Shown here piece after piece: positions 8,641 to 50,802 of a DNA stretch of 64,000 nt. Both the position numbers and the translations under genes were made by a program. The notes under the pieces were generated by a model, which did not search any database, was not told where the DNA came from, and saw only the letters and a program-made list of their open reading frames with translations. Numbering within the stretch: the stretch's first letter is position 1; every line of letters begins with the position of its first letter. Source of the DNA: Streptomyces sp. NBC_01260 (GTDB lineage Bacteria > Actinomycetota > Actinomycetes > Streptomycetales > Streptomycetaceae); the NCBI RefSeq assembly GCF_036226405.1, contig NZ_CP108464.1, positions 4,898,001-4,962,000 on the forward strand, written 5' to 3'.

Positions 8641-8664
8641 GGCGACCGGGACCCCGCAGCCCGC

Positions 8665-8705
8665 GGGGCCTGTCCGGCGGCTCGTTCGCCGGCCGGACAG
8701 GCCCC
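8665..8705. terminator. Hairpin terminator between convergent genes
   Basis: A perfect 14-base-pair stem (8665-8678 with 8692-8705) with a 13-base loop sits 25 bases after the dioxygenase stop and 28 bases before the end of the opposing gene. Confidence 0.75.
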
Positions 8706-8732
8706 GGTTCATGGCAGGGTCAGAGCATGGGG

Positions 8733-9773: not shown

Positions 9774-9779
9774 GCGGAG

Positions 9780-10171: not shown

Positions 10172-10232
10172 GCGCCCTCCCCGGGTGGCGCGACAGGGTA
10201 CTGCATGATCGCGAAAATGAATGCCAGGCATG

Positions 10233-10258
10233 GGAATTCTGTCCGGATTCCAGTCGTT
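10233..10258 (+). promoter_or_regulatory. SigR-type (thiol stress) promoter of hrdD
   Basis: GGAAT at 10233-10237 (GGGAAT including 10232) and GTT at 10256-10258 are separated by exactly 18 bases, the SigR consensus GGGAAT-N18-GTT. Transcription would begin around 10265, about 54 bases before the ATG. hrdD is a known SigR target in S. coelicolor. Confidence 0.8.
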
Positions 10259-10318
10259 GTTTCCATCGGAAGCTGGGCACCCGAAAGGGTGTCGCGACCT
10301 ACTCAGCAAGGAGCACGC

Positions 10319-11317: not shown

Positions 11318-11370
11318 GCCCAAGTCCAGTAACCTCCGAATTGGGCCGCTTCATATCGGCCCCCTGAGCT

Positions 11371-11407
11371 GAGTCCCGGCGCCCACCCCCCCCTGGCGCC
11401 GGGGCTC
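11371..11407. terminator. Hairpin terminator between hrdD and the WYL gene
   Basis: A 13-base-pair stem (11371-11383 with 11395-11407, one G-T pair) with a C-rich loop. Its 3' arm reaches into the stop codon of the opposing gene. Confidence 0.7.
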
Positions 11408-12383: not shown

Positions 12384-12407
12384 GTCACCCAGGATGCCCG
12401 CCCATTG

Positions 12408-12422
12408 GGTCACGTTCTGACC
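12408..12422. promoter_or_regulatory. Candidate operator for the WYL regulator
   Basis: GGTCACGTTCTGACC is a perfect 5-5-5 inverted repeat in the 62-base spacer between the WYL regulator and the exporter, 24 bases before the exporter ATG, where bound protein would block transcription both ways. Confidence 0.5.
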
Positions 12423-12445
12423 TAATAGGCCTTTAACTTCTTCAT

Positions 12446-35427: not shown

Positions 35428-36567
35428 GTGAGCAGCAGCGGCCTGATCTACGCAGTCATCGTCGGGGCCTGGGCCGCCTACTTGGTGCCGATGTGGCTCC
35501 GCAGGCAGGACGAGCTCAACGAAGCCCGTCCGACGGAACGCTTCAGCACGGCCATCCGGCTGCTGTCCGGACGGGCGGCGATGGAGCGCCGGTATGCCAA
35601 GGGGCTGCAGGAGCGCACCGACGATGAGGCGGCGCCCGACGCCGACCCGGACGCGAGCACGGATCGAATGGATACCGTCGACGTCCGGAACTTCTCCGCG
35701 CCTCCGGCACACACCGAGGCCCGGGTGCACGACCCGGCTCGTGCGCCGGAGGAGCGCCCGGCCCGGGAACGGCCGGCTTCCCCCTCCGACTCCGCACCCG
35801 CCCGGCGCAGGCGTCCGCGCCCCGGCGGGATCGACGCCGAGCGGGCCCGGCGTGCGCAGCGCACCCAGGTCCTCGCACGCCGTCGGCGTACCACCGTCGT
35901 CCTGTTCCTCGGCTTCACGCTCGGCGCGGTCGTCGCGGCGGTCGGCGGCCTCGGCTTCCTCTGGGCCCCCGCGGTTCCCGCGGTGCTGCTGAGCACGTAC
36001 ATCGTGCATCTGCGCGCCAAGGAGCGGCACAGATTCGCCTTCACCATGGACCGGCGACGGGCCGAGGTGGCGGCGCAGCGCCTCCGCGAGAACCGCCCGC
36101 GCAGGCACCAGCCCACCGCGACGGCCCCCGCGGAGTCGGACGAGGACTCCGAAGCGCGCCACCCCGTCCCCGAGCCCACCCCCACGGTCTCCCCGCAGGA
36201 GGCCGGCCGCCGCGCCCTCGTCGAGCAGACGGACCACGCGGAGTGGGTGGACCAGCAGCGCGAACGAGGCCGGGTCCACGGCGACAGCTGGGAGCCGGTC
36301 CCGGTCCCGCTGCCGACCTATGTCACCGCCCCGGTCGCCCCGCGCGCCACGGGCGGCGTCGAGGTCGGCAACCCGGAGACCTGGAGCGCGGCCCGCTCCA
36401 GCACCGCCGAACCCACCCAGCCGGCCGCCCCGCACCCCGCGGCACCCCCCGTGGACCCGGCGCCCCGCCAGCGCACCAACCAGTCCCGCCGCTCCCGCGA
36501 CCGGGGCCGGACCCCCCTCTTCGACCAGTACGACGAGGACGACCGCCCCCGCGCGGCCAACGAGTGA
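35428..36567 (+). CDS. sepX: Divisome protein SepX/GlpR
   Basis: The 379-residue protein begins SSSGLIYAVIVGAWAAYLVP, an N-terminal membrane segment diagnostic of SepX/GlpR, followed by RRQDELNEARPTERFSTAIR. Two further helices lie near residues 152-193. The cytoplasmic regions are Arg/Pro/Glu-rich and disordered. In S. venezuelae SepX stabilises FtsZ rings and is needed for hyphal cross-walls and sporulation septa. Its place downstream of galU, the molybdopterin genes and the acetyltransferase is the conserved actinobacterial order. GTG at 35428 gives the expected N-terminus. Confidence 0.9.
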   Translation: MSSSGLIYAVIVGAWAAYLVPMWLRRQDELNEARPTERFSTAIRLLSGRAAMERRYAKGLQERTDDEAAPDADPDASTDRMDTVDVRNFSAPPAHTEARVHDPARAPEERPARERPASPSDSAPARRRRPRPGGIDAERARRAQRTQVLARRRRTTVVLFLGFTLGAVVAAVGGLGFLWAPAVPAVLLSTYIVHLRAKERHRFAFTMDRRRAEVAAQRLRENRPRRHQPTATAPAESDEDSEARHPVPEPTPTVSPQEAGRRALVEQTDHAEWVDQQRERGRVHGDSWEPVPVPLPTYVTAPVAPRATGGVEVGNPETWSAARSSTAEPTQPAAPHPAAPPVDPAPRQRTNQSRRSRDRGRTPLFDQYDEDDRPRAANE

Positions 36568-36663: not shown

Positions 36664-36737
36664 GGGCCTGTGGCGCAGTCTGGTAGCGCACCTCGTTCGC
36701 ATCGAGGGGGTCTGGGGTTCAAATCCCCACAGGTCCA
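36664..36737 (+). tRNA. tRNA-Ala (anticodon CGC)
   Basis: A 74-base cloverleaf folds with acceptor GGGCCTG/CAGGTCC, D-stem GCGC/GCGC, anticodon stem CCTCG/CGAGG around TTCGCAT, and T-arm TGGGG-TTCAAAT-CCCCA. The G3-T70 wobble in the acceptor is the alanine identity pair. CCA is not encoded. A terminator follows, and its last three bases begin a 91-base repeat also found at 45211. Confidence 0.95.
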
Positions 36738-36825
36738 CCGCAGCAACTGTTCTTGAGCTGGCTCAGGAAGAGTTCACAAGATCCCGTCCGATCTGATTGA
36801 TCGGGCGGGATTTTGGCGTTTCCGG
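36735..36825. repeat. 91-base direct repeat, left copy (attL-like)
   Basis: This block starts at the last three bases of tRNA-Ala and covers its downstream sequence and terminator. It is identical to 45211-45301 except at 36760 (G against A) and 36780 (G against A). Beyond both ends the two loci have nothing in common. Confidence 0.92.
36781..36811 (+). terminator. Intrinsic terminator of tRNA-Ala
   Basis: A 13-base-pair stem (36781-36793 with 36799-36811, one G-T pair) closes on TGATT and is followed by TTTT. Confidence 0.85.
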
Positions 36826-36975
36826 GGTTTGTTCGAGGAGTTGTCCGAACGCGATCGGTGCCGGAGGCGGTTGCCGGGCGGTCGTCGGCCTGATGTTTTC
36901 GGGGTGGTTCGGGTGCGTGAGGCATTTCTGGGCTGTATGCGGGCGCGCGTGATCCCGGCCTGTGGTGCTGGGGTC

Positions 36976-38337
36976 TCAGATGGTCTTGCAGATCTCCGGC
37001 CGTATGGGCGGCGGCAGCCCGGCCGCGTCGGGGGGCGTGGATGCCGATCCAGCGAGCGCGGTGACTCCGTGGGCGGTCCCGGTCGCCTGTGTTCGGGTGG
37101 TCTGGTGCCAGCTGAAGAGGATGTGCAGGTTGATGCTGCAGATCATCAGCGCGAGCAGGATGGTCTGCGCGACTCTCCCGTGAGCGAGTCGCTTCGTGGG
37201 GTCGGAGATGTCGATGCCGTGGCTCTTGGCCCTGCCGTTGAGGCCTTCGATGTTCGCTCGCTCGGGACGGTAGGCGTCCTGCCAGGTGGGGTGGAGGTAG
37301 TGCCGGTCCTGGCGGAACTTGTCGAGCTTGCCGAGGGCGCCGGGGCGGACGGTGATCGTGGGCTTCTGGCAGATCCGCGGAAGCTCGTCCTGGGGCAGGG
37401 GCCGCAGCCGTTCACCTTGAGGGATCGGGACGGTGGGTTTGGCCGCGCTGTGTGCGGCGGTGGCCCGCTTGTCGGTGAGGTCGACCACGGCCGGCCGTGG
37501 TGCCGGGACGCGGTGGACCTGGTTGAAGCGGGGACACACCACGGCGGGCGAGGGCCCGCTTGCCGGGCACTGGAGCCTGATCGCGCCCCGCTCGTCGGCG
37601 GACTCCTTGAGCTTGAGGAAGTACGGTTCCCGGCCCGCGATTCGCTCGCTGAGTTCGGTGCCGTCATCGAGGCTGCGTACGGCTTTGTCGTTGAGCCCTG
37701 TGGTCGCGTGGGCCAGTGCTGGCGGCATGGCGGGGCAGGCGAGGGATCCGTCGACGAGAAGGGCGCCTTGGTGGGTGCCCTGGACTCCACGGTGTTGCTG
37801 TTTGTAGTCGAGGTCACTGATCTCCTGCAACAGCTCCCGCCGACGCGTGCGCTCGACGTCCGCATCTTCCCAAGCAGCAGCGACAACTCTCGCCTCTTCG
37901 GCCGGCAGGCGGCTGCGCCGGTCACAGCGGTGAGGGTCGACGACTGTGGTCAGCCGGTCGAAGGAACGGTAGATACGACGGGAGAACGCGATCCTGGCGT
38001 GGCCATCAACACGACTGCCCTCCGGAACACCGAGCCAGGAGCGCGCAGGGGCCCGCAGCTCATCGAGGAGCACCCGGCAGACAACCGCGAGGCTGGCGCT
38101 CTGGTGATAGTGCAGCGCAAGCAACAAGCCCACCAGCACGGTCCGCACCGGGAGCCCTTTCGGGCCTGGCCGATTTCCCAGCTCGGTGTCGATCAGATGG
38201 AGGACTCCGGACTCGTGCAGGAGCGCATCGAGTTGTCCGACCTTGGAGTCCGGAATCTCCATCGGCGCGTCGGTGACCGGCCGTGGCCGGCACTGCTTGA
38301 TCTTCTCCGGGCTTCGCCAGGCCCGGGGTTTGGTCAC
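36976..38337 (-). CDS. DDE-transposase-like protein (IS1182/IS4-like)
   Basis: The 453-residue protein shows an N-terminal PVRTVLVGLLLALHYH region, a first acidic candidate Asp196 in LLVDGSLACPAMP, a Cys-containing middle (CPAS...CPR) and a likely Glu364 in RANIEGLNGRAKSHG; the second Asp is not obvious. This order recalls IS1182/IS4 transposases. The GTG at 38337 overlaps the stop of the recombinase-like gene by four bases, so the two are translated together, unlike a standalone IS. Terminal inverted repeats were not found. Function in or beyond transposition is uncertain. Confidence 0.65.
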   Translation of the reverse strand: MTKPRAWRSPEKIKQCRPRPVTDAPMEIPDSKVGQLDALLHESGVLHLIDTELGNRPGPKGLPVRTVLVGLLLALHYHQSASLAVVCRVLLDELRAPARSWLGVPEGSRVDGHARIAFSRRIYRSFDRLTTVVDPHRCDRRSRLPAEEARVVAAAWEDADVERTRRRELLQEISDLDYKQQHRGVQGTHQGALLVDGSLACPAMPPALAHATTGLNDKAVRSLDDGTELSERIAGREPYFLKLKESADERGAIRLQCPASGPSPAVVCPRFNQVHRVPAPRPAVVDLTDKRATAAHSAAKPTVPIPQGERLRPLPQDELPRICQKPTITVRPGALGKLDKFRQDRHYLHPTWQDAYRPERANIEGLNGRAKSHGIDISDPTKRLAHGRVAQTILLALMICSINLHILFSWHQTTRTQATGTAHGVTALAGSASTPPDAAGLPPPIRPEICKTI

Positions 38338-39302
38338 CTCGCCTTCGGGCCTCGCAAGAGCCGGGCCGCAGTCAGCTCGTCCACGGGTGGGACCAGGTGC
38401 TGCCAGCGGGCCAGAGACGCGGCGGAAGAGAGCCCGGCTGCCTGGGCGATCAGCTGGTGATCGATATGCGCGCGCATCAGCTCGACGATCCACGTCGCCC
38501 GCAGTCGGCCCACCGACACCGCGGGGAGCTCCTGCGGAGGCCGGTGGATCAGGGACCAGGAGCCGATCAGGTTCTTCGCGTACTCGACAGTCCGCCTCGG
38601 CCGGAACAGGTAGCCGCCGCCCGCCGTTTCTGCCAGCTCCCCCAGAACTGTGTCCCAGGCCGCCCTGGCGACAAGCGGGACCAGCCGGTCGACGCCCCGG
38701 TGCAGCAGCGGGCCGCCCCGGCTCGGACGGTACAGATCGAGACCTCGGCTGGCCGCGACCTCCTTCGGCATCAGGCCCAGACCGGCACCCAGCCCCAGCA
38801 ACGCGAGCGCGTCGGTCCGCTGCTGACGGGGCAGATGGGTGGCCCAGTGCCGCAGCCCCGCCAACTCAGCTGCGCAGTAGGGCTGGTGCGGGCTTGTGTC
38901 CGCACGTATCCGTGCCGGGGGCGCCTCCCCGCGCTCGCTCCAGGCGAGGGCGTCGCGGACACGCAGCAGCCACGTCCGGTACGTCCGTACCGACGCCCCC
39001 TGGATTTCCCCCACCCTCGAGAGTACGAACGCGTCGATCACCTCATTGCGCAACCACGCGTCCGGGGATCGTTCGAGCCCTGCCGCCTCGGCCCACAACG
39101 CCAGCCGGCCGACCACGTGCAGCAATCGCTCCACGTCATAGGGAACGGCCGTCACGGCGGCGGCAACGATCGACCGCACCAGCGGAGCGACCTCGGCCCA
39201 GACAGGTGGAGCGCTCTTGGGCCGATAGCGAGTGATCTTTACGGACGTGACGGGATCAAGGACCACGGTCCATACATACCGGCTGGACAAGCAGCCATTC
39301 AC
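38334..39302 (-). CDS. Tyrosine-recombinase-fold protein lacking catalytic residues
   Basis: The 322-residue protein has an N-terminal SAM-like helical domain (about 40-160) and a C-terminal part aligning with phage integrases. In the integrase box the expected Arg (LRxxE) is replaced within LGLMPKEVAAS, the HxLRHT box reads GRLRATW with only one Arg kept, LGH becomes AGLSS, and the catalytic Tyr position reads RWQHLV. The frame is intact, so loss of catalysis is not simple decay. It diverges from an HTH gene by 35 bases and is coupled to the DDE-like gene. The exact start (39302 or GTG 39266) is uncertain. Confidence 0.68.
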   Translation of the reverse strand: MNGCLSSRYVWTVVLDPVTSVKITRYRPKSAPPVWAEVAPLVRSIVAAAVTAVPYDVERLLHVVGRLALWAEAAGLERSPDAWLRNEVIDAFVLSRVGEIQGASVRTYRTWLLRVRDALAWSERGEAPPARIRADTSPHQPYCAAELAGLRHWATHLPRQQRTDALALLGLGAGLGLMPKEVAASRGLDLYRPSRGGPLLHRGVDRLVPLVARAAWDTVLGELAETAGGGYLFRPRRTVEYAKNLIGSWSLIHRPPQELPAVSVGRLRATWIVELMRAHIDHQLIAQAAGLSSAASLARWQHLVPPVDELTAARLLRGPKAR

Positions 39303-39337
39303 AGCTGATCAACTTCAACGGACAGGATGGTGCGCGC

Positions 39338-39655
39338 ATGGTCGGCGGACGCGCCCGCGCACGCTCCCCCCGGGAGCTGACCGACGATCCGAAAGCCTGG
39401 CCCGAACAGCCGAGCGCCGACGTGGCCGCTGAAGCGGTCCGCCTCATCGCACGTACCCTCGCCCTGGTCCTGAACGACCAGGGCCTGAGCCTGCGTGCGA
39501 CCGCCGCCGGCTCTGGAGTGAACAGGCAGGCCATTGCCGACCTCGTCGCGGGACGGTCCTGGCCGGACGTGGCCACCGTCGCCCGCCTCGCACACTTCAC
39601 CGGCACCACCCTGTGGCCGAACGGCACCAACATCGATCGAAAGAGAACGCATTGA
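39338..39655 (+). CDS. XRE-type helix-turn-helix protein
   Basis: The 105-residue protein has an HTH (about residues 50-95): LSLRATAAGSGVNRQAIADLVAGRSWPD is a Cro/CI-type motif. An Arg/Pro-rich N-terminus precedes it. It is divergent from the recombinase-like operon with only 35 bases between starts, so it probably regulates that operon and itself. Nothing identifies a ligand. Confidence 0.7.
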   Translation: MVGGRARARSPRELTDDPKAWPEQPSADVAAEAVRLIARTLALVLNDQGLSLRATAAGSGVNRQAIADLVAGRSWPDVATVARLAHFTGTTLWPNGTNIDRKRTH

Positions 39656-39857
39656 GCCTCGATCCATGCCCGAAGACGCCAAACAGCGACCGGGCATGAC
39701 GTTTCGTGGCTCCGCGCATCGAGAGGAGACTGCCTCAACTACCCTCGAAAACGCGGGAGCCACCTGTCAGACGGCGCTCACGCACCCGGCACCGCCGAGT
39801 CGATGGGTAATCCCTCGGCGGTGCCACCCTCTCCTGCCGCGCGCTCGCGGCCCCGGA

Positions 39858-40397
39858 TCACCCCCGAGGATCCTCCTGCCGCTCGTTACCGGCGCCGACC
39901 GGAGAGATCGTGAACCAGGCCGTTGGACCTTCAGTGACGCGGCCGTCCTTCGCCAGGCGCTTCAGCCGGGACCTGGTCGTCTCCACCCGCCGCCCCTTCG
40001 ACGTGGCCGAGACGTCCTCGCCGATCGCCGACGCAATGTCCTGCACCTTCATCGCCCGACCCACCCCCGCCAGCAGCACCAACATCCGCTCTCGCGCCAC
40101 TTCCCACTCCAACGGGCCGCCCGAGGCGGGCCCACCGGCAGGTACTTCCGCATCGGCAGGTTGGGGATCAGAGGCAAGACCATTCGGCATCGGCTCGGCT
40201 GCGGGCCTCGCCGTCGCCTGTTGCGTGGCATCACCTTGGTTGACGCAGTCCTCGCCGCCCAGGGACAGCAGCGTCTCCCGAGTGATCGTCAGGTGAGCCA
40301 GCCGCTCCTCGGCCACCGCGACCTTCTCGCGCAGCGTGGCCAACTCGCCACGAACAACCGCCTCTTCCTGATCCAGACGCTCGAACAGTGGCGTCAT
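39858..40397 (-). CDS. Coiled-coil plus winged-helix protein, function unknown
   Basis: The 179-residue protein starts with a charged amphipathic helix (residues 1-48, heptad-like, with QEEAVVRGELATLREKVAVA), passes through a Pro/Ala linker and ends in a winged-helix-like domain (about 115-170; IASAIGEDVSATSKGRRVETTR). Proteins of this layout are common near mobile elements in Streptomyces but lack a defined role. The ATG at 40397 begins the coiled coil; the longer frame to 40814 has no coding character. Confidence 0.68.
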   Translation of the reverse strand: MTPLFERLDQEEAVVRGELATLREKVAVAEERLAHLTITRETLLSLGGEDCVNQGDATQQATARPAAEPMPNGLASDPQPADAEVPAGGPASGGPLEWEVARERMLVLLAGVGRAMKVQDIASAIGEDVSATSKGRRVETTRSRLKRLAKDGRVTEGPTAWFTISPVGAGNERQEDPRG

Positions 40398-40855
40398 CCC
40401 GGCCCCGCCTTCGCTTGCCGATCCCCGAGCCCGATGGCACTCCGAGCCCCAGCCAAACGTAGGGGCGGGCATAGCAAGATCGCAGAAGGTGACCGCAGAT
40501 GCCCCCAACCGACAACTCCTGCCCGCCTTGAGTCCACCATTCGAAATGGATCGACCACTTCCACCCATGACTGCAGTCATCGGTAACGGGCCTCGGGCTG
40601 GCCTGATCCACGTCGCGAGACAAATTAGCGATTGAGCGGCCGATTCCCGCAGGAATCGGCCCCTCATCGACGCGGAGATCAGGTGGGTTCGGCAAAGTGG
40701 TGCCGATGTCCGTATACAGCTCAAGTTCCAGCGACTGGACCGTGAGCGGCTCTCCCTGACGCAGCACCCGGGCCCCATCTGTGCGCCGCCGACGTTGTAT
40801 GGACCCACACCCACGACAGCGCCGCCATGCTGCCGTAACTGGGTGGCCCCTTTCG
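40398..40855. other. Spacer with hairpin, no supportable gene
   Basis: GGCCGATTCC at 40638-40647 and GGAATCGGCC at 40652-40661 form a perfect 10-base-pair stem with a 4-base loop, possibly terminating the ABC-exporter transcript from the right. A minus-strand frame across about 40600-40850 looks partly protein-like but has no start or recognisable domain, so I treat it as a remnant at most. Confidence 0.4.
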
Positions 40856-43018
40856 TCAGTCGGCCGCCGGCTTCCAGTTCTGGGCCTCGCGGGCTGCCGC
40901 GCGTGCACCAAGGAGTCCGACAGCCAGGGAGACCGCGGCACAGGCTGAGATGCCGGCTGCCAGGACTGCCCAGGACACAGAGCCTTCATTCACCAGGGCG
41001 ATGAAGAACACGGAGTGCCACGCGGTCACTGCTCCCGTGATGACGGTCGCAATGAGCAGGGGCACGGTGAGGTGCCACGAGGTTACTGACCGGAACACGC
41101 GGCGTCGTCCGGTCAGTACGGACAGCGGGGCGAGAGCGTGCCGGATCCGGACGAACTCGGCCGCCGCACTCACCGCGCCGGCGACGAGAATGAAGAGGAT
41201 GCCAGTGATCCCGAACAGTTGGATCCAGTTCGGCAGGCGGGTACGCGATGAACCCAGCCAGTTCCCCCCCAATGCCTCCACTTGTACCGAAGGGTTGGGA
41301 AGCGTGAACCCGGCCTGCTTCACCGCGGCAAGCTGCCCAGCGGCAGGGGCCACGACAAGGAGCGACTGTTCTCCGTCTGCCTTCACGGTGATCCGGGAGG
41401 CCTGTACAAATCTCACGTCGCCGTACCAGCGGCGCATCTCCTCCACCTGGGCGTTTCCTCCCGTCGGTGCCGTCGTGCTGCCGTGGCACTCCACCTCCAG
41501 CACGCGCAGGTCGTGACACGTCCCTCCGACCGTGACCCACGGATCCTTCGGCGGCCCTGGATCATGGAACGTACGACTCAGCAGAACCGTGCCTGCCGGC
41601 AGAGATGAGCGAAAGTGGTCGGTCTGGGCCGCGGTCATGTTGCTGGCGGCCACCTCGATGACGGTGTCCTTGATCCGCTGATGCGTGGCAACGGCCGCTT
41701 GCGAGTGAGCCCCCAGCCTGCTGGTCCATACCTGCATCTGGGCGACGATGCCGATGCCGATCACCATCGCAAGGGCTAGGCGCACGATCACGCCAGGGTG
41801 GGCGTGCGTCCATCGTCCGCCGATCAGGCGGCCCGGATGGCCCTTCCGCCTTCCGCTGTCGGCGACCCAAGAGCCCAAGTGGCGGGTGAGGAGGGCCACG
41901 ACGGACGACAGGAAAGCCCACATGGCTACGGTTCCGGAGGTGAAGACAATGAGCTGTGCCCTGCGAGGCACGTACTGGCTCGTCAGGACTAGTGCAACCC
42001 CCACACCGCAGAGAGCCAGGCGCCACGCGGGAACCCGGGAACTGAAAGAGGTGGGGCGGGTGGACGTGCCGTTGCGTTGAATGCGGTGCGTGCCCACCAC
42101 GATACCGAGGACTACCAACAGGGATACGGCGGCCATGGCGCAGGCCATAAGCCAGGCGTCCCACACGTCGCGGTGATCGAGGATGTATCCGGTGGGCGCC
42201 AGGCGTGTGCTGTGTACGGACGCGATGGCATATGGGACGAGCGCGGTGAGTGTTCCCAGTGTGGCTGGGATCGCGGCTTCGCCGGTGTTGACGATCATGC
42301 GGTGGCGCCAGGTGCCGCCGAGTGCCTGCAGCAGGCCGCTGCGCCGATCGCGAGTGCGAGAGCCGACCCGTGCGGCCACGACCGTCAGGGCGAGGGCGGG
42401 CAGCCCGGTCAAGGCCCACAGCGCGAGGATCGGAGAGGTTACCGTCGGCTGATCGACCATCTCTCCCGTCGCCCCGCCGTTGCTCCCGAAGCCGGACACA
42501 TGCATCCACCTGGGATCGTTCCTCGGCGCCCCGTCCCCTACTCGGACATAGGCAATCCGTTCGGAGGGAGTAACCAGGCCGTCCGTGGTGACGGTGCCGG
42601 CGAACCTTCCAAAACGGGTCAGGATTCCTTCCCCGCTGCCGGTCCTGATGAGTTCGGGAGAGAGTAGAACCTCGCCCGGCTTCGGCCAGCGGGTCACGCC
42701 GGCGGGAACCGGAGCCTCGGCAGTGAGCGGCCGGACGAATACTACTGAGAATGGTCTGCTGCCGACAGTGTCGGCCCCCTCCCGGTACAGCAGGGCGGCA
42801 TCCTTCCCGAAGGTGATCACCGGCCCTCTGGCGTCTGCCCTAGTTTCCCGGCCGTCGTACGTCGCGACCGTGGCCACGGTCGCCAGGACGACGAAGGCGA
42901 CGGCAGCCGCCGCACAGAACAGCCCCCACCATCGCAAGCGGTCGCCCGGAGTGGAGCGGCCTGCGGCAAGACCGATCCGGAGCAGCGTGGCCGCGGTGCG
43001 GATCACGTTCCCCATCAC
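40856..43018 (-). CDS. FtsX/MacB-type ABC transporter permease
   Basis: The 720-residue membrane protein has an N-terminal helix (about 28-49), a large extracytoplasmic domain, and two groups of helices typical of FtsX-like export permeases. It starts within an ATGA overlap with the ATPase gene, so the pair forms one exporter. The family usually exports peptides or lipoproteins or resists antimicrobial peptides. A small secreted protein gene lies just upstream in the same direction and could be cargo or sensor. Codon and base composition look less G+C-biased than the core genes. Confidence 0.82.
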   Translation of the reverse strand: MMGNVIRTAATLLRIGLAAGRSTPGDRLRWWGLFCAAAAVAFVVLATVATVATYDGRETRADARGPVITFGKDAALLYREGADTVGSRPFSVVFVRPLTAEAPVPAGVTRWPKPGEVLLSPELIRTGSGEGILTRFGRFAGTVTTDGLVTPSERIAYVRVGDGAPRNDPRWMHVSGFGSNGGATGEMVDQPTVTSPILALWALTGLPALALTVVAARVGSRTRDRRSGLLQALGGTWRHRMIVNTGEAAIPATLGTLTALVPYAIASVHSTRLAPTGYILDHRDVWDAWLMACAMAAVSLLVVLGIVVGTHRIQRNGTSTRPTSFSSRVPAWRLALCGVGVALVLTSQYVPRRAQLIVFTSGTVAMWAFLSSVVALLTRHLGSWVADSGRRKGHPGRLIGGRWTHAHPGVIVRLALAMVIGIGIVAQMQVWTSRLGAHSQAAVATHQRIKDTVIEVAASNMTAAQTDHFRSSLPAGTVLLSRTFHDPGPPKDPWVTVGGTCHDLRVLEVECHGSTTAPTGGNAQVEEMRRWYGDVRFVQASRITVKADGEQSLLVVAPAAGQLAAVKQAGFTLPNPSVQVEALGGNWLGSSRTRLPNWIQLFGITGILFILVAGAVSAAAEFVRIRHALAPLSVLTGRRRVFRSVTSWHLTVPLLIATVITGAVTAWHSVFFIALVNEGSVSWAVLAAGISACAAVSLAVGLLGARAAAREAQNWKPAAD

Positions 43019-43698
43019 AGGGCCCCAACTTCGGCCAGGATCCCGCCACGCAGTTCGTGGCGTCGGTCGGCACGCTCAGCCACCGAGAGGTCATGGGTGA
43101 CGACCAGCAGCGCGCACCCCCGGTCTCGGGCGGCCGTGAACAGGAGCGTGGCGACTCCCTCTTTGGCCTCCGGATCGAGGGCCCCGGTGGGCTCGTCAGC
43201 GAGTAGGACGGCGGGCTCGGTGATCAGGGCGCGGGCGACGGCGGTCCGCTGTCGTTCGCCGCCGGAGAGCATGCCGGTGGGAGTGGAGCCGGTGGGGACA
43301 CCGAGATCCCCGAGGAGTTCTTCCGCACGCCGGTAGGCCTCCTGATGCCGGCCTCCGTCGAGCAGAACGGGCAGAGCGACATTCTCTACCGGGCTGAGCT
43401 CAGGCAGGAGCTCACCGAACTGGAACACCATGCTCAGCGTCTTCCGCCGCGCCTGGGCGAGCCGTGCCGATCCGACTCTGGTGATGTCCATACCCCCTGC
43501 GCTGATAGTGCCCGCCTGCGGTTTGATCAGGCCGAGGATGCACATCAGCAGGGTCGACTTGCCCGATCCGCTGGGGCCGGTCACGGCGACCGACTCAGTC
43601 CGGCGTACGGACAGCCCCACGCAGTCGAGGAGAGTCCGCCCGCCGACCTGGTAGCTCAGACCGCTGACGTCGAGCCCTGACGAATCGTTCTGGTTCAC
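43015..43698 (-). CDS. MacB/LolD-like ABC transporter ATPase
   Basis: The 227-residue ATPase carries Walker A GPSGSGKST, signature LSGGERQRTAVARAL, Walker B VLLADEPTGALD and the switch His in VVTHD. It energises the adjacent FtsX-type permease. The GTG at 43698 is preferred, with AGAGG nine bases upstream; the reading frame extends to 43737 without a better site. It stands 85 bases downstream of the small secreted protein gene, with which it may form an operon. Confidence 0.9.
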   Translation of the reverse strand: MNQNDSSGLDVSGLSYQVGGRTLLDCVGLSVRRTESVAVTGPSGSGKSTLLMCILGLIKPQAGTISAGGMDITRVGSARLAQARRKTLSMVFQFGELLPELSPVENVALPVLLDGGRHQEAYRRAEELLGDLGVPTGSTPTGMLSGGERQRTAVARALITEPAVLLADEPTGALDPEAKEGVATLLFTAARDRGCALLVVTHDLSVAERADRRHELRGGILAEVGAL

Positions 43699-43783
43699 GA
43701 AGAATTGCCTCTTATCGCGGGAACGGGGACGCCGCACCAGCCGTGTGCTGGCTGGTGCGGCAGTGACGCCTCGGAGCTTCTGC

Positions 43784-44128
43784 CTACGAAATCTTCCACC
43801 CCGAGCAATCGTCCGGCGTTCCGTAGTTCTCGTCGCATACCTGGAACTTGTAGATTCTTGCCCCGTCAGCCGAGTACGACGTAGTTCCCGGGCCGCTGTG
43901 GTTCCACAGGGTCCGCTTCGTCTCCGTGGTGTCGGTCCGGTAGTACTCGGCCTTCACCGGGTCGCCGTCGCTGCTGTTGTCCTTGACGGCCACCTTTCCG
44001 CTGTCGTTCGTGGCCGGAGTCCAGCCGTGTGCGCCCCCGCCGTAAGCATCCACCGCCGCCGCCGTGGCCGTGGGCACGGCGAGCGCCAGCGTGAGTAGCG
44101 CAGCTGCGACGATCTTCGTTCGGGTCAT
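43784..44128 (-). CDS. Small secreted protein
   Basis: The 114-residue product starts with a classic Sec signal (MTRTKIVAAALLTLALAVP, cleavage near TATA-A). The mature domain of about 85 residues is rich in Gly, Ser, Asp and Tyr, with RTLWNHSGPGTTSYS and two cysteines near the C-terminus that could form one disulphide. GAGGAG seven bases upstream fixes the ATG. It belongs to a group of small Streptomyces exoproteins I recognise by style only. Its position upstream of the ABC genes on the same strand suggests functional linkage. Confidence 0.78.
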   Translation of the reverse strand: MTRTKIVAAALLTLALAVPTATAAAVDAYGGGAHGWTPATNDSGKVAVKDNSSDGDPVKAEYYRTDTTETKRTLWNHSGPGTTSYSADGARIYKFQVCDENYGTPDDCSGWKIS

Positions 44129-45210
44129 TCGAGTACTCCTCAGCTGATGATGTCGAGGACACGGAAGGACCATCAGTCAGCGACAGGAAGTGATGCTGCC
44201 ACTGATGAGTGGCGCTTCCTTGACGTGTCCGAATCAAGGCCCCCAACGGGACGGCCGAAAGGAATCACGCCCAAGGTCGCGGAGGCAAGGGATGGCTCGG
44301 GTCGCCCCTCCCTGCCTCCTGGGCGCATTCTGTATTGCGCTCCGTGCAACGCAGCAGCTCCGGCGCTGCTTCATCCCGCCTTCGCGGAGGAAGTCCGAGA
44401 TCGGGGATGAACTTGATCCGAACATGATCGACCGAAAACTGCCTCTGGAGTCGAGGCCTCCGGTTTGTGAATTGCTCGTCCACGATCGCGGATTTCCTCC
44501 CGGGACTCCGTGAAGTCTCAGAACTGAGACCAATTGGCGGTGGAGCACGCGCGATGATGTGGTGCGTGGCCTGACCTGCGATGCTGAGCTGCTGCGGCAA
44601 CTCGGAAATGTCGATGGATGCCAACTTGACATCCAGCGTGAGTTCCTGGGTGACCCGAGCTCAGTCGGCGGTAACCAGACTCACACCGCTGTTTCTCCAG
44701 GTTTCTCAGCAGACTGGCCGCGACCATCCAGGCGTGCCCGGTGATCCCGAAGGGAGGGGCTTGCGGCAGGGAGCTCCCCGGCCCGCTCGTTGGCCCGTCC
44801 ACCGGGCGGGCCTCACGTCCATCGGCTCGTTCCTGCGCCGTACGGACCGGTCCCATCTTCATCGTCAACTTCTGGCCTCTGCGGTCGTCCGGGCCGCCTC
44901 CATTACGACCCGCAGAGCAGTGTGTGCCAGACCGGCGACGAACTCGACCTCTCCCACCAGCTCCTGACGGGGCGCGACCTGTGCGCCACCATCCTCGCCA
45001 CCCAGATCGCCGCCCTCGTAGCGGCGCGGGAACCACCCCGTGCACCCGCCTCCTGTGCGCACGGAGGCCGCTGGCGTTGTCTCCGCCCAGGTCATGACCC
45101 AACTTGCCGCAGGAGGAGCCTTGCAGCGGGGTGGGAAACGATCTCCGTTGGTTTGGGAAGCGATCTTCGTGCGCCTCGGGAGCGCCTGGTCAGGGGGACT
45201 CGTGAACACC
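44129..45210. other. Decayed right end of the island
   Basis: No reading frame in this stretch has consistent Streptomyces codon bias, a start with ribosome site, and a recognisable domain at once. Short frames on both strands look like fragments of former genes. The segment ends exactly at the right 91-base repeat. Confidence 0.5.
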
Positions 45211-45301
45211 CCACCGCAGCAACTGTTCTTGAGCTAGCTCAGGAAGAGTTCACAAAATCCCGTCCGATCTGATTGATCGGGCGGGATTTTGGCGTTTCCG
45301 G
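45211..45301. repeat. 91-base direct repeat, right copy (attR-like)
   Basis: This copy repeats the tRNA-Ala 3' terminal bases, flank and terminator found at 36735-36825 with two mismatches, but no tRNA precedes it. The hairpin at 45257-45287 is retained. Confidence 0.92.
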
Positions 45302-45497
45302 AGGGCGTCGGGACAGCTCTCGTCCGCGTCGTGGCCGCGGTCGCTGTCAGTGGCTCCTGCCAGGATGCTCACACGGCCCCGGGCGGGCGAACATCCACCG
45401 GGTGCGGGGCGCGCTCCTGCCACAACCTGCTGGGGTGCGGCTCCCGCCTGGCCTGGGACACCCCGACCACCCGACGAGTCCTACCCGGAAGATCTTC

Positions 45498-45902
45498 ATG
45501 AGCTGGGACGTGCTTCTTCTCCGCCTGCCTGACGAGATCACCTCGGTCCAGGACATCCCCGACGACTACTCCCCGCCCCCGCTCGGCCGCCGCCGCGACG
45601 TACTCGCGGCCGTCACCCGGGCCGTCCCCGCAGCAGATCTCTCGGACCCCGCCTGGGGCGAACTGCTCGGACCCACCTGGTCCATGGAGCTCAGTATCGG
45701 CTCGGCGGACCGCGTGGACACGATCATGCTCCACATCCGGGGCTCCGGCGACGGCGTACTCACGACCGTCTTCCGTCTCGCCGAAGCTCTGAGCTGCAAG
45801 GTGCTGGACTGCTCCGAGGGAGACCTGATCACTCCGGGGGAGACGTCGGGATGGCATGGCTTCCAGCAGTACCGCGACCGTGTGGCCGGCGGCGTGCACT
45901 GA
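45498..45902 (+). CDS. Conserved hypothetical protein
   Basis: The 134-residue cytoplasmic protein starts MSWDVLLLRLPDEITSVQD and has a mixed alpha/beta pattern with a WSMELSIGS strand and a Trp-containing end. I recognise it only as a type of small hypothetical protein in Streptomyces. The ATG at 45498 follows a weak GGAAG. It is the first gene right of the island and would stand directly downstream of tRNA-Ala if the island were absent. Confidence 0.65.
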   Translation: MSWDVLLLRLPDEITSVQDIPDDYSPPPLGRRRDVLAAVTRAVPAADLSDPAWGELLGPTWSMELSIGSADRVDTIMLHIRGSGDGVLTTVFRLAEALSCKVLDCSEGDLITPGETSGWHGFQQYRDRVAGGVH

Positions 45903-45948
45903 CCACCGCGGGGCCGTTCGCGAGCCGGCCCGTGGACGGATCACGAAC

Positions 45949-45977
45949 GCCCGCCCGGTCACTTCGACCGGACGGGC
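45949..45977. terminator. Hairpin terminator between convergent genes
   Basis: A 12-base-pair stem (45949-45960 with 45966-45977, one mismatch) closes on ACTTC, between the hypothetical protein and inhibitor genes. Confidence 0.7.
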
Positions 45978-46040
45978 ATGCGTCTTCACAGGGCCGGTGC
46001 GGTGGTCATGCCGCACCCGGGCGAGCCAGGTACTCAGGCC

Positions 46041-46628
46041 CTAGCAGGGGCTGAGGTACCAGACCCACCGCCAGTCCGCGGCAGCGTCCTGGCTGTAGCC
46101 ACCCGGCGAGGTCCAGCGCAGAATCTCGTCGCTGTCGTAGAACTTCGCGCTCAGCCCGGCCCGCTGGTTGTTCTTCCACGATCCGGTGGTGTTCCAGTAG
46201 ATACGGACCGGGTAGTTGCAGGTGAAGAGGCGCAGCTCGTCACCGGTGAAGTTCGTTCCCGAGTACGCGCACACATAGGTGTACGGGCAGGAGGAGGCGG
46301 CAGCCCGCGCGGCGTCCTTCGTGCCGAGGTTGCGGGCGTGCTTCTCCCCGGGCAGGGCGAGCGTCAGCTCTCCACCCGGCACCCGGATCTTGTTGGCGGC
46401 CACCTGAGTGCCGCCCCACTTGGCCACGTTGGCGTCGGCCTCGGCCTGAAGTGCCCTGGCCTCGGAGCTGCTCAGCCCGGCGCCCTTCGCCTGAGCCGAG
46501 AAGTCCGGCCGGCTGTCCGCGTCGGCCGAACCCGCCGTGGCCACACACGCGGCCAGCACCATCATCAGCGCGACGACAACCCTCCCCACCCCGGTCGGTC
46601 TGTACGTCCGCTGCTGGATCCGAGTCAC
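46041..46628 (-). CDS. Secreted peptidase inhibitor, family I36
   Basis: The 195-residue preprotein has a Sec signal (basic start, VVVALMMVLAACVATAGSA, cleavage near ADA at about 38), a helical pro-region (about 40-100) and a C-terminal betagamma-crystallin-like domain (about 110-195) with CPYTYVCAYSGTNFTG and several Cys, as in the SMPI-type metalloprotease inhibitors. The GTG at 46628 has GGAGGGG upstream. It could inhibit secreted proteases such as thermolysin-like enzymes; the target is not established. Confidence 0.8.
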   Translation of the reverse strand: MTRIQQRTYRPTGVGRVVVALMMVLAACVATAGSADADSRPDFSAQAKGAGLSSSEARALQAEADANVAKWGGTQVAANKIRVPGGELTLALPGEKHARNLGTKDAARAAASSCPYTYVCAYSGTNFTGDELRLFTCNYPVRIYWNTTGSWKNNQRAGLSAKFYDSDEILRWTSPGGYSQDAAADWRWVWYLSPC

Positions 46629-46668
46629 TGGGACACCCCTCCGTTTGACGTTCCCCCCATGGGGATCG

Positions 46669-47703
46669 TCACCACTGTGCGGCGCGGTGCGTGGTCCGGT
46701 CGTTGGCCGGGAGCGCAGACATTCTGTGCACGGAGTGCATCGAGCGCCGCCGCTCGCCCGGTGCGATCCCGTACGCGGCGCGGAACATCCGGCTCAACGC
46801 CGCCCCGTTCCCCAGACCCCACCGCGCCCCGATGTCCTGGACCGACAGCCGTCGGAGCCGCGGGTCGGCCAGATCCGCGTAGCAGCCCTCCAGCCGCTGC
46901 CGTCGTATGGAGGCGGCCACGGTCTCCTTCCGCCGCCGGAAGAGCTGATGGAGCAGCCGTACGGAGATGTGATGCCGCGCGGCGATCGCACCGGGGGTGA
47001 GCGCCGGGTCAGCCAGGTTGTCCCGGACGAAGACGTCGATACGGGCCAGCAGCAGCTCGTGCCGCGCCTCCGGGGGCAGGAACTCCTGCGCGTCGAGCCG
47101 GTGGGCGAGGAACCCGGCAGCCAGGTCGAGCCCCGTGTCGCCGAGCCGTGCGCGGCTGCGCTCGTCCAGCACCGCCGCCTCTGCCATCGACGAGCCGAGA
47201 AAGTCGCCGAGCACCTTCCCGAGTCCGGCTCGGGCAGGCAGACCGTGTGCGAGAAGGGCACCGACCCGGGCCTCGGGCAACGGCACGAGCGCGCGCGGCA
47301 GATGCAGGATGAGCGCGCGCGAGGCCCCGGTCACCGGCCCGCTCACCGCCTCCCCGCTGTAGGGCCGCGACGATGTCCACAGGGTGATGTCACCGGCGGC
47401 GAGGCGGGTGGTGTGACGCCCCTGCGAGACCCCCATCGACCCGCCCAGGATCAGGGTCAGTTCGTACGTCTCGGGGTCGGCCCGCCGGATCAGTTCCGGA
47501 GTGCGCCGCGACCGCAGGGCGGGAAACGACATCCTCGTCAGCTGAAGCCGTCCCAGATCGAGGGAGCCCACACTTCCCACGAAGTCGGGGGCGAAATCGC
47601 TGCTGATGTGAGTCGGCGCGACCCCCTGCCCGACGGCCTGACGCCACCAGTCGAACCGCTGCTCCCGCGGTAGCAGCCCGGTGTCGAACTCCGTGAACGC
47701 CAT
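46669..47703 (-). CDS. AraC-family transcriptional regulator
   Basis: The 344-residue protein has an N-terminal AraC-binding-2 domain (about 10-190) and a C-terminal double HTH (about 225-325); ISVRLLHQLFRRRKETVAASIRRQRLEGC and a second HTH with GFGNGAALSRMFR-like sequence are visible. Such NphR-like regulators usually activate catabolic or secondary genes. The start at 47703 matches homologues (MAFTEFD); the frame extends to 47739. No divergent target is adjacent, as the neighbour on the left is the inhibitor gene. Confidence 0.85.
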   Translation of the reverse strand: MAFTEFDTGLLPREQRFDWWRQAVGQGVAPTHISSDFAPDFVGSVGSLDLGRLQLTRMSFPALRSRRTPELIRRADPETYELTLILGGSMGVSQGRHTTRLAAGDITLWTSSRPYSGEAVSGPVTGASRALILHLPRALVPLPEARVGALLAHGLPARAGLGKVLGDFLGSSMAEAAVLDERSRARLGDTGLDLAAGFLAHRLDAQEFLPPEARHELLLARIDVFVRDNLADPALTPGAIAARHHISVRLLHQLFRRRKETVAASIRRQRLEGCYADLADPRLRRLSVQDIGARWGLGNGAALSRMFRAAYGIAPGERRRSMHSVHRMSALPANDRTTHRAAQW

Positions 47704-47867
47704 CAGATCCCCCGTATGAGCGGCACATGGATACAGCACTCACAGTGGCTATCGGGGCGTGGGACGCGCAATCGTGCCTCGGCGGCCCGCCGGAGCGCGA
47801 GGCCGGAAACCGTCTTTGTGCTCCGGCGGGCCGCGCGGTCACCCGCGATGCCCGCCGGGCCGGGGCG

Positions 47868-48437
47868 TCAGTGAGCCCCGTCCAGCCGGGCCCGCTGCTC
47901 GTCCGTCAGCTCCAGGTCGACCGCCGCCAGGTTCTCCTTCAGCTGGGCCACCGATGACGCCCCGGCCAGCGGGATCACGGGGAGCCGGCCGCCGATCTGC
48001 CAGGCCAGGACCACCTGGTTGACGCTCGCCCCGGTCTCGGCGGCGATCTCGCGCAGCACCGTGAGCCGCTCCCGGCTGCGCTCGGCGGCCTCGCGGACCG
48101 CCTTCGCCGACAGGCCCTCCGGGTTGTCGGTGTAGCCGGTGCCGGGTGCGAGGGGCGCGGCGCCCAGCTTGGTGGCGATGACTATCTCGTCACCGACACC
48201 GCGGCTGCGCCGCCACTTCCCGAGCAGCCGCTCGCTCTGGCCGCCGAGGCCGCCGTCGACCCAGAAGGCGTAGTTGTCGGAGGTGTCGATGAAGGTGCCG
48301 CCGGCCTCGACGTAGTGGTCCAGGACGGCGAACGAGGTCCTCTCGTCGGTCACCGACCCGAACAGCATCGCGCCGAGTGCGAGGACGCTCACCTCGCGCC
48401 GGGTGGCGGGGTCCGTTCCGATGGTGCGGTACTTCAT
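47868..48437 (-). pseudogene. Aldo-keto reductase with large in-frame internal deletion
   Basis: The 189-residue frame begins as a normal AKR (VLALGAMLFGS, then FIDTSDNYAFW) up to the EAAERSRERL segment, then jumps at about residue 122 to the C-terminal TVLREIAAETGASVNQVVLAW and SSVAQLKENLAAV. The 130-150 residues that normally lie between, including the catalytic-site strands and most of the barrel, are missing, although the frame is kept. Known AKRs of this class are about 310-330 residues. The product would probably not fold as an active reductase. Confidence 0.75.
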
Positions 48438-48645
48438 GGCTGTCCCCTCCGTCGGGCCGCCGTCGCCCGGTGGCCGTGGGAGGGAGTGTGGTTGTTGAAG
48501 TGCGCTTCAGGGCAAGGGGATTGCTCAGGCGGGTCCACCGCCGGTCGCGGAACGTGCGGCGCGGATCGTCGGCCCGGGCGTCCGGGACAGCCCTTACGCT
48601 GAGGGCGCTCGCAAGCACCGTGTTTCCCGTACAGAGGAGCGTCCT

Positions 48646-49431
48646 GTGACGGCCGGCATACCCCACCCGCGGATCGACACCAGCAAGCCTCATCCCGCGC
48701 GCGTCTACGACTGGCTGCTGGGCGGCAAGGACAACTATCCGGTCGATCAGCAGGTGGCGGAGAAACTGCCGGAGGCGGCTCGGGGCAACGCGGCCCGCAA
48801 CCGGGCGTTCATGCACCGGGCGTCGGCCTGGCTGGCGCGGGACGGGATCGACCAGTTCCTCGACATCGGCACCGGAATCCCCACGGAGCCGAATCTGCAC
48901 CAGATCGTCCAGGCGATCAGGCCGACGGCCCGGATCGTGTACGCGGACAACGACCCGATCGTGCTGCGTCACGCGGAGGCGCTGCTCGTCAGCAGCCCAG
49001 AAGGGGCCACGGACTACCTCCACGCCGATGCGCGGGAACCGGAGGCGATCCTCGAACGGGCCAGGGAGCTGCTGGACTTCGACCGGCCCATCGCCCTGTC
49101 GCTCATCGCGCTGATGCACTTCCTGCCGGACGACCAGGACCCGTACGGCATCACCCGCACCCTGGTCGACGCGCTGCCCCCGGGCAGCTTCCTGGTGCTT
49201 TCGCACGGCACCGCCGACCAGCATCCGGAGCTCAGGCAGGAGACCGAGACGGCGTACAAGAAGGGCGCCATCGCGCTGCGGATGCGTACACGCGTCGAGG
49301 TGGAGCGGTTCTTCGACGGGCTGGAACTCGTCGAACCCGGGCTCGTCCCGGCCACCGAGTGGTACCGGCAGGAGCCGGCGCCGGTCGTGGAGCGCAGCGG
49401 TTTCTACGTGGGCGTCGGGCGGGTCCGGTAG
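48646..49431 (+). CDS. S-adenosylmethionine-dependent methyltransferase (DUF574)
   Basis: The 261-residue protein matches the actinobacterial SAM methyltransferase family DUF574: PHPARVYDWLLGGKDNYPVD at the N-terminus, FLDIGTGIPTEPNLH for the SAM-binding motif I, and VYADNDPIVL for motif II. Substrates are unknown; many paralogues occur per genome. AGAGGAG precedes the GTG by nine bases. It stands divergently from the truncated reductase. Confidence 0.9.
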   Translation: MTAGIPHPRIDTSKPHPARVYDWLLGGKDNYPVDQQVAEKLPEAARGNAARNRAFMHRASAWLARDGIDQFLDIGTGIPTEPNLHQIVQAIRPTARIVYADNDPIVLRHAEALLVSSPEGATDYLHADAREPEAILERARELLDFDRPIALSLIALMHFLPDDQDPYGITRTLVDALPPGSFLVLSHGTADQHPELRQETETAYKKGAIALRMRTRVEVERFFDGLELVEPGLVPATEWYRQEPAPVVERSGFYVGVGRVR

Positions 49432-49444
49432 GTGTCCGGGAGCC

Positions 49445-49936
49445 TCAGGGCGTGATGTCCAGCAGCGGCTTCGCGAAGCAGCGGCTGCTGTCGTACGTCC
49501 GGTAGTGGCCGAACTTCTCGCAGGGCTCGTAGCCGCTGGAGGCGTACAGGGCGATCGCCTCGGGCTGCTGGTCGCCGGTCTCCAGGACCATGCGGACGCG
49601 GCCGGCCGCACGGGCGTCGGCCTCCAGGGCGGCCAGGATGCGGCGGGCCAGGCCGTGGCCGCGCCCCTCGGGGATCACGTACATCCGCTTCAGCTCGGCG
49701 TCCCCGTCCGAGTACCCCTCGGTGTTCCGCTCCTGCGGGCGCCAGCCGCCGGTGGCGACCGGGCTGTCCGACGCGTCGTAGGCGATCAGATAGCGACCGT
49801 GCGGCGGATCGAACATCGTGGCGTCCAGCGGTGTGACATCGCCCTCGTCCCCGTAGCGCTCGGCGTATTCGAGCTGCACGCGATCGTTGAGTTTGACGGC
49901 GTCGGGGTGGTCGAACGCACGGGTGTGGATATTCAT
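49445..49936 (-). CDS. GNAT N-acetyltransferase
   Basis: The 163-residue protein shows the GNAT acetyl-CoA motif in PEGRGHGLARRILAALEADA (about 89-108) and a following strand-helix with VLETGDQQPEAIALYASSGY. The acceptor is unknown. It diverges from the exonuclease gene across a 50-base spacer and converges on the methyltransferase with 13 bases between stops. Confidence 0.85.
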   Translation of the reverse strand: MNIHTRAFDHPDAVKLNDRVQLEYAERYGDEGDVTPLDATMFDPPHGRYLIAYDASDSPVATGGWRPQERNTEGYSDGDAELKRMYVIPEGRGHGLARRILAALEADARAAGRVRMVLETGDQQPEAIALYASSGYEPCEKFGHYRTYDSSRCFAKPLLDITP

Positions 49937-49986
49937 ACGGGCGATGGTACATGTATGCGGATGGCGGGTGTCGGTATCGTGCCGGA

Positions 49987-50802
49987 ATGCTCACCGTTAC
50001 CAGCGTGAATGTAAACGGTCTCCGTGCCGCCGCCAAGAAGGGCTTCGTCGAGTGGCTGGCGCAGACCGACGCCGATGTGATCTGCCTCCAGGAGGTGCGG
50101 GCCGAGGCGCAGCAGCTGCCCGAGGAGGTGCGTGAGCCCGAGGGCTGGCACACCGTCCACGCGCCGGCCGCCGCCAAGGGCCGTGCCGGGGTCTCGCTCT
50201 ACTCCCGCCGGGCGCCCGAGCGGGTACAGATCGGCTTCGGCGCCTTCGGTGACGCCGGGAGCGAGGAGTTCGACGCGAGCGGCCGGTACGTCGAGATCGA
50301 CCTGCCGGGTGTCACGGTCGCGAGCCTGTATCTGCCCTCCGGCGAGGTCGGCACGGAGAAGCAGGAGGAGAAGGAGCGCTTCATGGCGGCCTTCCTGCCC
50401 TACCTGGCCGGGCTGAAGGCGCGGGCCGCCGCCGGTGGGCGCGAGGTGGTGGTGTGCGGCGACTGGAACATCGCCCACCAGGAGGCCGACCTCAAGAACT
50501 GGAAGGGCAACAAGAAGAACTCCGGCTTCCTCCCCGAGGAGCGGGAGTGGCTGACCCGGGTCTTCGGGGAGGCCGCGTACGTCGATGTCGTACGGGCTCT
50601 GCACCCGGACGTCGAGGGCCCGTACTCGTGGTGGTCCTACCGCGGGCGCGCCTTCGACAACGACACGGGCTGGCGCATCGACTACCAGGTGGCCACCCCG
50701 GGACTGGCCGCCCGCGCGGTGAAGGCGTGGGTCGAGCGGGCCGCCACGCACGGCGAGCGGTGGAGCGATCACGCGCCGGTGACGGTGGTGTACGAGCAGT
50801 AG
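49987..50802 (+). CDS. xthA: Exodeoxyribonuclease III
   Basis: The 271-residue protein belongs to the ExoIII/APE1 family of AP endonucleases that repair abasic sites. Motifs SVNVNGLRAA, CLQEVRAEA, CGDWNIAHQEADLKN and the C-terminal SDHAPV give the metal and catalytic residues. The ATG at 49987 is followed at once by the conserved first strand; a GTATCGTGCCGGA upstream suggests a -10 element and nearly leaderless message. Confidence 0.92.
   Translation: MLTVTSVNVNGLRAAAKKGFVEWLAQTDADVICLQEVRAEAQQLPEEVREPEGWHTVHAPAAAKGRAGVSLYSRRAPERVQIGFGAFGDAGSEEFDASGRYVEIDLPGVTVASLYLPSGEVGTEKQEEKERFMAAFLPYLAGLKARAAAGGREVVVCGDWNIAHQEADLKNWKGNKKNSGFLPEEREWLTRVFGEAAYVDVVRALHPDVEGPYSWWSYRGRAFDNDTGWRIDYQVATPGLAARAVKAWVERAATHGERWSDHAPVTVVYEQ

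Follow-up and report, generated by a model that had tools for sequence, protein, structure and literature searches.

The window analyzed here, 64,000 nucleotides (nt) of Streptomyces sp. NBC_01260 (contig NZ_CP108464.1, positions 4,898,001 to 4,962,000), carries an island next to a tRNA-Ala(CGC) gene, with a 91-nt direct repeat at its boundaries. Comparison with other genomes shows this island to be a DDE transposon, element A (~36742 to 45212, 8.47 kb; 8476 nt with its duplication), which is bounded by short terminal inverted repeats, duplicates 5-6 nt of its target and enters tRNA-Ala between positions 72 and 73. The best explanation of the locus, and one that we hold to be very probable, is a tRNA-docking DDE transposon stacked on an older copy, in which int, a protein with a tyrosine-recombinase fold that lacks the catalytic set, would be the aiming device. 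More broadly, and with confidence only somewhat better than even, we propose an Actinomycetota-wide family in which a dead tyrosine recombinase, recruited independently of TnsF, reads the tRNA T-arm and steers a Tn5-fold transposase to nt 72/73, and in which the transposon end replaces the tRNA terminator and outlives the transposon as the tRNA-Ala trailer of many Streptomyces.

The two repeat copies, at 36735-36825 and 45211-45301, are 98% identical with two mismatches, and accessory genes fill the interval between them, as the original prediction had it. A whole-genome search (E ≤0.001) finds only these two copies in the 9.28-Mb genome, with E values of 1.8e-41 and 9.2e-39, which excludes chance. 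The left copy opens with the last three nt of the tRNA gene, up to A73, and runs on into downstream sequence (tRNA-Ala(CGC), the target gene, 36664-36737, plus strand; the ARAGORN call is 36664-36739, and A73 falls at 36737 by sequence). That the repeat begins at the tRNA and not inside it had been remarked on from the start, and this was the right clue to a transposon end: judged by comparison, the repeat is the tRNA's CC, a short target duplication and the transposon left end, and is not the tRNA's own flank. The duplication, ACCGC (ACCGCAG if 7 nt), occupies 36737-36741 and recurs identically at 45213-45217 (both plus strand). The left end that follows, now the tRNA trailer (36742-36825, plus strand), bears the terminal inverted repeat GTTCnnGAG and a strong hairpin at 36780-36812. 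The right end (45128-45212, plus strand) has two GGGAAnCGATCTnCGT repeats with 22-nt spacing and the terminus CTCGTGAACACCCC. It is conserved in genomes G092 and G039, where the 80 nt upstream of the second 91-nt copy are retained and the cargo is different, and in G092 an additional right end is followed by another, native-type tRNA trailer; the 91-nt flank is therefore not the tRNA's own.

On the same comparisons, the second repeat copy belongs to an older element, element B, now decayed and pushed outward by the newer insertion, and forms its left end. This left end (45218-45301, plus strand) is 98% identical to that of element A, and a probable cargo relic of element B lies at 45498-45902 (plus strand). 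A pattern search of 45000-50500 recovered neither a second right end nor a native trailer, so the far end of element B is either lost or unrecognised. Right ends of the element A type number 34, in 29 of the 65 loci examined, and a right end abutting another left end is also seen at L072/L133, L118, L123 and L151; judged by eye, the label of L124 as having a further left end next to it is a false match, and L128 and L145 (labelled 'other') resemble variant left ends. Conserved neighbors in relatives are 35428-36567 on the tRNA side and 49445-49936 and 49951-50802 on the right. Among relatives, 22 show the 49445 homologue beyond the tRNA, and there its start is 0.9 to 17.6 kb away from the tRNA; this variable distance marks the tRNA-Ala locus as an insertion hotspot. 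The original prediction had placed the 45498 gene directly beside the tRNA in relatives lacking the island; the conserved right neighbor is instead the 49445 gene, and in G092 the 45498 homologue has the module on one side and a second copy of the left end on the other. The empty site it foresaw, tRNA plus 91 bases plus 45302 onward, is absent among the loci compared, and when 61 genomes were searched with 45020-46650, only the genome itself matched across the joint. The same-species genome G166 is uninformative on island occupancy, its contig ending near window position 47226.

A different empty site can be recreated. A decayed, 2.7-kb copy in S. violaceusniger (L170), once its flanks are joined, aligns with G065 over 153 columns (90.9%, 1 gap), with G091 over 159 columns (89.3%, 1 gap) and with G023 over 143 columns (85.3%, 3 gaps); in these three genomes a tRNA-Ala carrying its native trailer is the empty site, and the copy and the empty flank have just ~7-8 nt in common. 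Copies in S. caatingaensis are 99.3-99.8% identical, one at the tRNA and two elsewhere, and the four left ends seen start at the same base. With duplications read between the right terminus GAACACCCC and the left terminus nnnnnGTTC, the two S. caatingaensis insertions for which both ends are available have 5 nt each, ACAAC and GCCCG, the latter through an inferred pairing of L138 with L171. Five further non-tRNA copies with both ends (L124, L159, L262, L264, L265) duplicate 5-6 nt or more. Duplications at non-tRNA sites on chromosomes and plasmids are unrelated in sequence, and at tRNA genes the apparent repeat is lengthened by chance agreement of the bases that follow.

The int gene (38334-39302, minus strand) encodes a protein whose AF2 model (pLDDT 90, pTM 0.69) matches Cre, XerH and Tn1549 Int in structure, with Met in place of Arg I and Trp in place of the Tyr in the window copy. 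Across its family Arg I, in a box I located by the pattern G-L-x-x-x-E, occurs in 1 of 81 rows, the box II His in 0 of 82 and the Tyr in 48 of 82; Arg I and both His positions are gone nearly throughout. Sequence searches return little: int is not among the 17 stretches found by a PF00589 search of its own genome and has no PDB match by sequence, and NCBIfam, applied to the window proteins, has no above-cut-off match to int, dde or hth. In PHROGs, the relative P0070 matches phrog_1 integrase (E 3.4e-7) and L095 matches weakly, and the window int and the dde relatives have no match. Mapped onto the int tree, tRNA isotype changes 7 times, against a minimum possible of 6 and a shuffled mean of 12.6; several long branches and one mis-framed row (L233) weaken this tree.

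Next to int lies dde (36976-38337, minus strand; 453 aa), a DDE transposase with an in-frame loss of 154 residues that removes two catalytic Asp positions; on either side of this gap it is 85% identical to P0121. The window copy is probably immobile because its dde is without two of the three catalytic acids. In the family alignment (23 rows) D-D-E is invariant, with a long insertion ahead of the E and R-x3-E-x6-K in the last motif, which we take to correspond to the YREK signature. The best structural match of an intact relative is the Tn5 fold; the VIA-align rows behind this are a second look at Foldseek's ranks and do not make the Tn5 fold the sole possibility. Three dde relatives, one of them probably frameshifted, have no Pfam family at E ≤1. 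At the same kind of tRNA in several Streptomyces (L079, L173-L180, L233-L237, L240, L241), dde of the Leu(GAG) type shows 94-96% identity, a higher conservation than in the Ala type.

As read from gene order and co-occurrence, the transposition module is dde, int, hth and wh. The hth gene (39338-39655, plus strand) encodes an XRE-type regulator of 105 aa (PF01381, E 4.6e-8), and wh, the fourth gene (39858-40397, minus strand), a 179-aa protein that we name for its coiled-coil and winged-helix-like regions, both the name and the domain reading being our own. Matches to hth occur in 36 and to wh in 29 of 37 loci tested, these being the loci with a full or nearly full int among 43 with an int match, and a wh gene also adjoins the module on plasmids.

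The family is widely distributed. Of 199 Streptomyces genomes, 30 have a match to int, and a profile search of a phylum sample matches 18 of its 396 genomes and 13 of its 236 genera; a DDE transposase gene or its remnant adjoins int at most loci. Among the first 20 int-bearing loci (of 38 listed matches), int lies beside tRNA-Ala(CGC) at 13, of which 8 have dde-int-hth in the window order, 1 has an inverted hth fragment and 4 are incomplete. A convergent tRNA-Ala lies 217-364 nt from the dde match at 35 of 52 named loci (32 CGC, 2 GGC, 1 TGC), the 52 being those of 58 with at least 420 nt beyond dde, and L135 and L136 being one locus. Other branches adjoin Leu(GAG), Leu(CAG), Gly(CCC), Met(CAT) and Ser(GGA) tRNAs with the same geometry. 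The same ends, with other cargo, occur in many actinomycetes at tRNA-Ala and at unrelated chromosomal and plasmid sites. Eight plasmid records have dde and 6 have int, the two occurring together on six Streptomyces plasmids; five plasmids examined (two alike) have no tRNA at the insertion, and phage records gave no dde match. On one plasmid, of Streptomyces sp. NBC_00057 (L265, ~8400-13880), the transposon apparently lies inside a spacer of a type I-E CRISPR array, with repeat-like sequence on both sides and a cas operon next door. One S. caatingaensis copy (L137), whose partner end was not found, adjoins a coding sequence that, as read from its translation, resembles alanyl-tRNA synthetase and may be either the essential gene or a paralogue. 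In S. blattellae (L075/L115) an element is bracketed by two complete tRNA-Ala(GGC) genes separated by ~5.8 kb, as though a copy of the tRNA had been made or brought along.

The left end seems to have a life beyond the transposon. Of 24 left ends folded, 23 have a hairpin of -24 to -36 kcal/mol, among them ends of the Leu and Met types and those of two of the three plasmid copies; the hairpin of element A in the window has -25.3 kcal/mol and was not flagged by a standard terminator scan. By our own count (query start ≤7), this left end stands at tRNA-Ala in at least 25 of 199 Streptomyces genomes, and in 10 of 19 such genomes examined downstream there is no dde or int match within 16-17 kb. We infer that these module-less left ends are captured transposon ends serving as tRNA trailers; the traffic may also have run in the opposite direction, the transposon having taken its end from a tRNA trailer.

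Targets outside tRNA genes often appear to mimic the tRNA T-arm. Among the non-tRNA sites, two tandem loci were set aside, as were eight whose left end could not be read. At 7 of the remaining 11, namely four distinct plasmid sites and L124, L129 and L159, the motif RANTCC, with a background of 0.0016 per base, lies 21-22 nt ahead of the element. In tRNA-Ala the T-arm itself supplies this motif (AAATCC), 10 nt separating it from the cut.

The comparisons show that insertion between nt 72 and 73 leaves the tRNA intact, since the duplication begins with A73, and that the transposon left end with its strong hairpin becomes the new tRNA trailer. Repeated insertions at the same tRNA push older elements outward, and such successive insertions yield the 91-nt repeat. 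In the scheme that we propose, dead int may bind the tRNA gene at its T-arm/acceptor part and place the Tn5-fold transposase a fixed distance downstream, and the XRE and wh proteins may regulate or assist. The hairpin could act as the tRNA terminator, which would let left ends outlast decay of the rest. The aiming role is suggested by this geometry and by analogy to TnsF, as described in the passages used here of PMC10293859.

That int has a tyrosine recombinase fold, that the insertion is at a tRNA 3' end and that a direct repeat stands at both boundaries would all fit an ordinary tRNA-integrating island, of the actinomycete integrative and conjugative element (AICE) or genomic-island type, in which an active tyrosine recombinase joined attP to an attB of 91 nt in the flank 3' of the tRNA. 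We consider this very improbable, since Arg I and both His are lost nearly family-wide, int is missing from the PF00589 stretches of its own genome and a DDE transposase gene or remnant sits beside int at most loci. Moreover, the bases after the tRNA are host-specific (ACCGC in the window, ACGCA in G092, ACAAC in G149) though the int proteins of these hosts share 88-89% identity with that of the window, and the duplications at non-tRNA copies are unrelated. The standard attL/attR reading was ruled out on the catalytic residues, the host-specific duplications and the non-tRNA copies. Of the original prediction of a tRNA-integrating island, mobility, the position at the tRNA 3' end and a boundary at each repeat copy are supported; the repeat as a recombinase attachment site is not, the common target being just 5-7 nt (ACCGC[AG]) and the rest being transposon left end that is also found at non-tRNA sites. 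Two 98% identical copies beside a tRNA could also arise with no mobile element at all, by tandem duplication of the tRNA flank and replacement of the middle, as had been suggested as well. To this we give almost no credence: the right end at 45128-45212, conserved in G092 and G039, precedes the second copy, cargo is different in other genomes, identical termini occur at unrelated sites, and an empty site can be recreated.

A closer rival accepts the DDE transposon as described and lets the transposase itself pick the tRNA, with int in a regulatory, end-binding or architectural role. Since the two genes are inherited together, the selector could be either one, and int is uninterrupted at several non-tRNA sites (e.g. 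L124, L129, L159); against this stand, as a precedent, TnsF (PMC10293859), an inactivated tyrosine recombinase that directs Tn6022 to comM, and the grouping of the int tree by tRNA isotype, which dde might share. We think this rival rather unlikely, though far less so than the other two.

Several observations weigh against the tRNA-docking transposon with int as its aiming device. Inheritance of int and dde together means that phylogeny cannot assign the choice of tRNA to int, and a profile alignment with four active recombinases shows a gap in int where they have Arg I. For dde, no match by Foldseek alone had an E below 0.001. The joined flanks of L135 gave no clean empty site (best 76%, 11 gaps), and the duplication varies among copies, some having 5 nt and others at least 6, which leaves the exact cut not fixed. 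No tRNA is directly adjacent at 17 of the 52 named loci, of which L154 and L158 lie behind another element's right end and the remainder are at other sites or unresolved, and just 5 of 10 distant-genus loci are beside a tRNA. The hairpin is weak in the plasmid copy L265. The T-arm motif is missing at four of the 11 non-tRNA sites (L137, L138, L150, L164), and its count is post hoc, the motif having been seen on several counted sites beforehand.

The transposon shares with the IS4 superfamily (Tn5/IS50) a DDE catalytic fold with an insertion domain, its best structural match, but unlike that superfamily its dde relatives have no Pfam sequence-family match. Tn5 makes a 9-nt target duplication and, to our knowledge, has neither a partner protein nor a tRNA target. 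Tn7-like elements are marked by a 5-nt target duplication and several 22-nt end repeats; here the duplication is 5-6 nt or more, and a 22-nt repeat spacing is seen only at the right end. The module and cargo proteins tested in Pfam and NCBIfam include no TnsABC or TniQ family match. In the passages used here of Faure et al. 2023 (PMC10293859), Tn6022, a Tn7-like element, pairs a DDE transposase with TnsF, a target selector with an inactivated tyrosine recombinase domain, and makes a target duplication; here too a catalytically dead tyrosine recombinase fold adjoins a DDE transposase, but Tn6022 needs TnsA, TnsB, TnsC and TniQ and targets comM, whereas our transposase has a Tn5-like fold and the targets are tRNA genes. 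In the same passages, Tsy moves by an active tyrosine recombinase, unlike the family here, and the type I-D element CyCAST is likewise a DDE transposon homing near a tRNA gene, but inserts 30-33 nt downstream of it via TnsD, whereas the cut here lies between nt 72 and 73. The position at a tRNA 3' end and the tandem arrays recall AICEs such as pSAM2, as portrayed in the passages used of PMC3218068. AICEs, however, use an integrase, a replication initiator and an FtsK/SpoIIIE-type transfer protein, none of which we met; of the 8 interval open reading frames among the 10 proteins scanned, none had a replication initiator or FtsK/SpoIIIE Pfam match.

We found no description of this transposon family in the portions seen of open-licence PMC papers, the sole literature covered, and as a cut-and-paste family it is apparently undescribed. 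If our interpretation is correct, this would be the second time, and independently of the first, that a dead site-specific recombinase has become the aiming device of a transposon, here with a transposase unrelated to that of Tn7, and would make the tRNA T-arm a safe, universal insertion target. It would also account for a class of actinomycete tRNA-linked islands that integrase-based annotation can miss, because the two large module proteins are mostly labelled 'hypothetical' in named records (some are 'integrase' or 'transposase'). As a small system open to testing, the family could also serve work on directed insertion, and it provides a natural experiment in tRNA terminator replacement.

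The cargo of element A comprises an FtsX-like permease (40856-43018, minus strand; PF02687, E 0.0044, under its cut-off), a MacB/LolD-type ABC ATPase (43015-43737, minus strand; PF00005, E 3.9e-31, LolD-like in NCBIfam) and an open reading frame for a small putative secreted protein of 129 aa (43784-44173, minus strand; secretion is our own reading), which has no Pfam family and a single, meaningless NCBIfam match (E 0.037). Farther right in the window, 47782-47834 forms an inverted repeat of 25 nt with a 3-nt loop, possibly a terminator. In G070 (L083), a second tRNA-Ala(CGC) gene lies inverted ~570 nt from the first (16101-16176 and 16673-16748).
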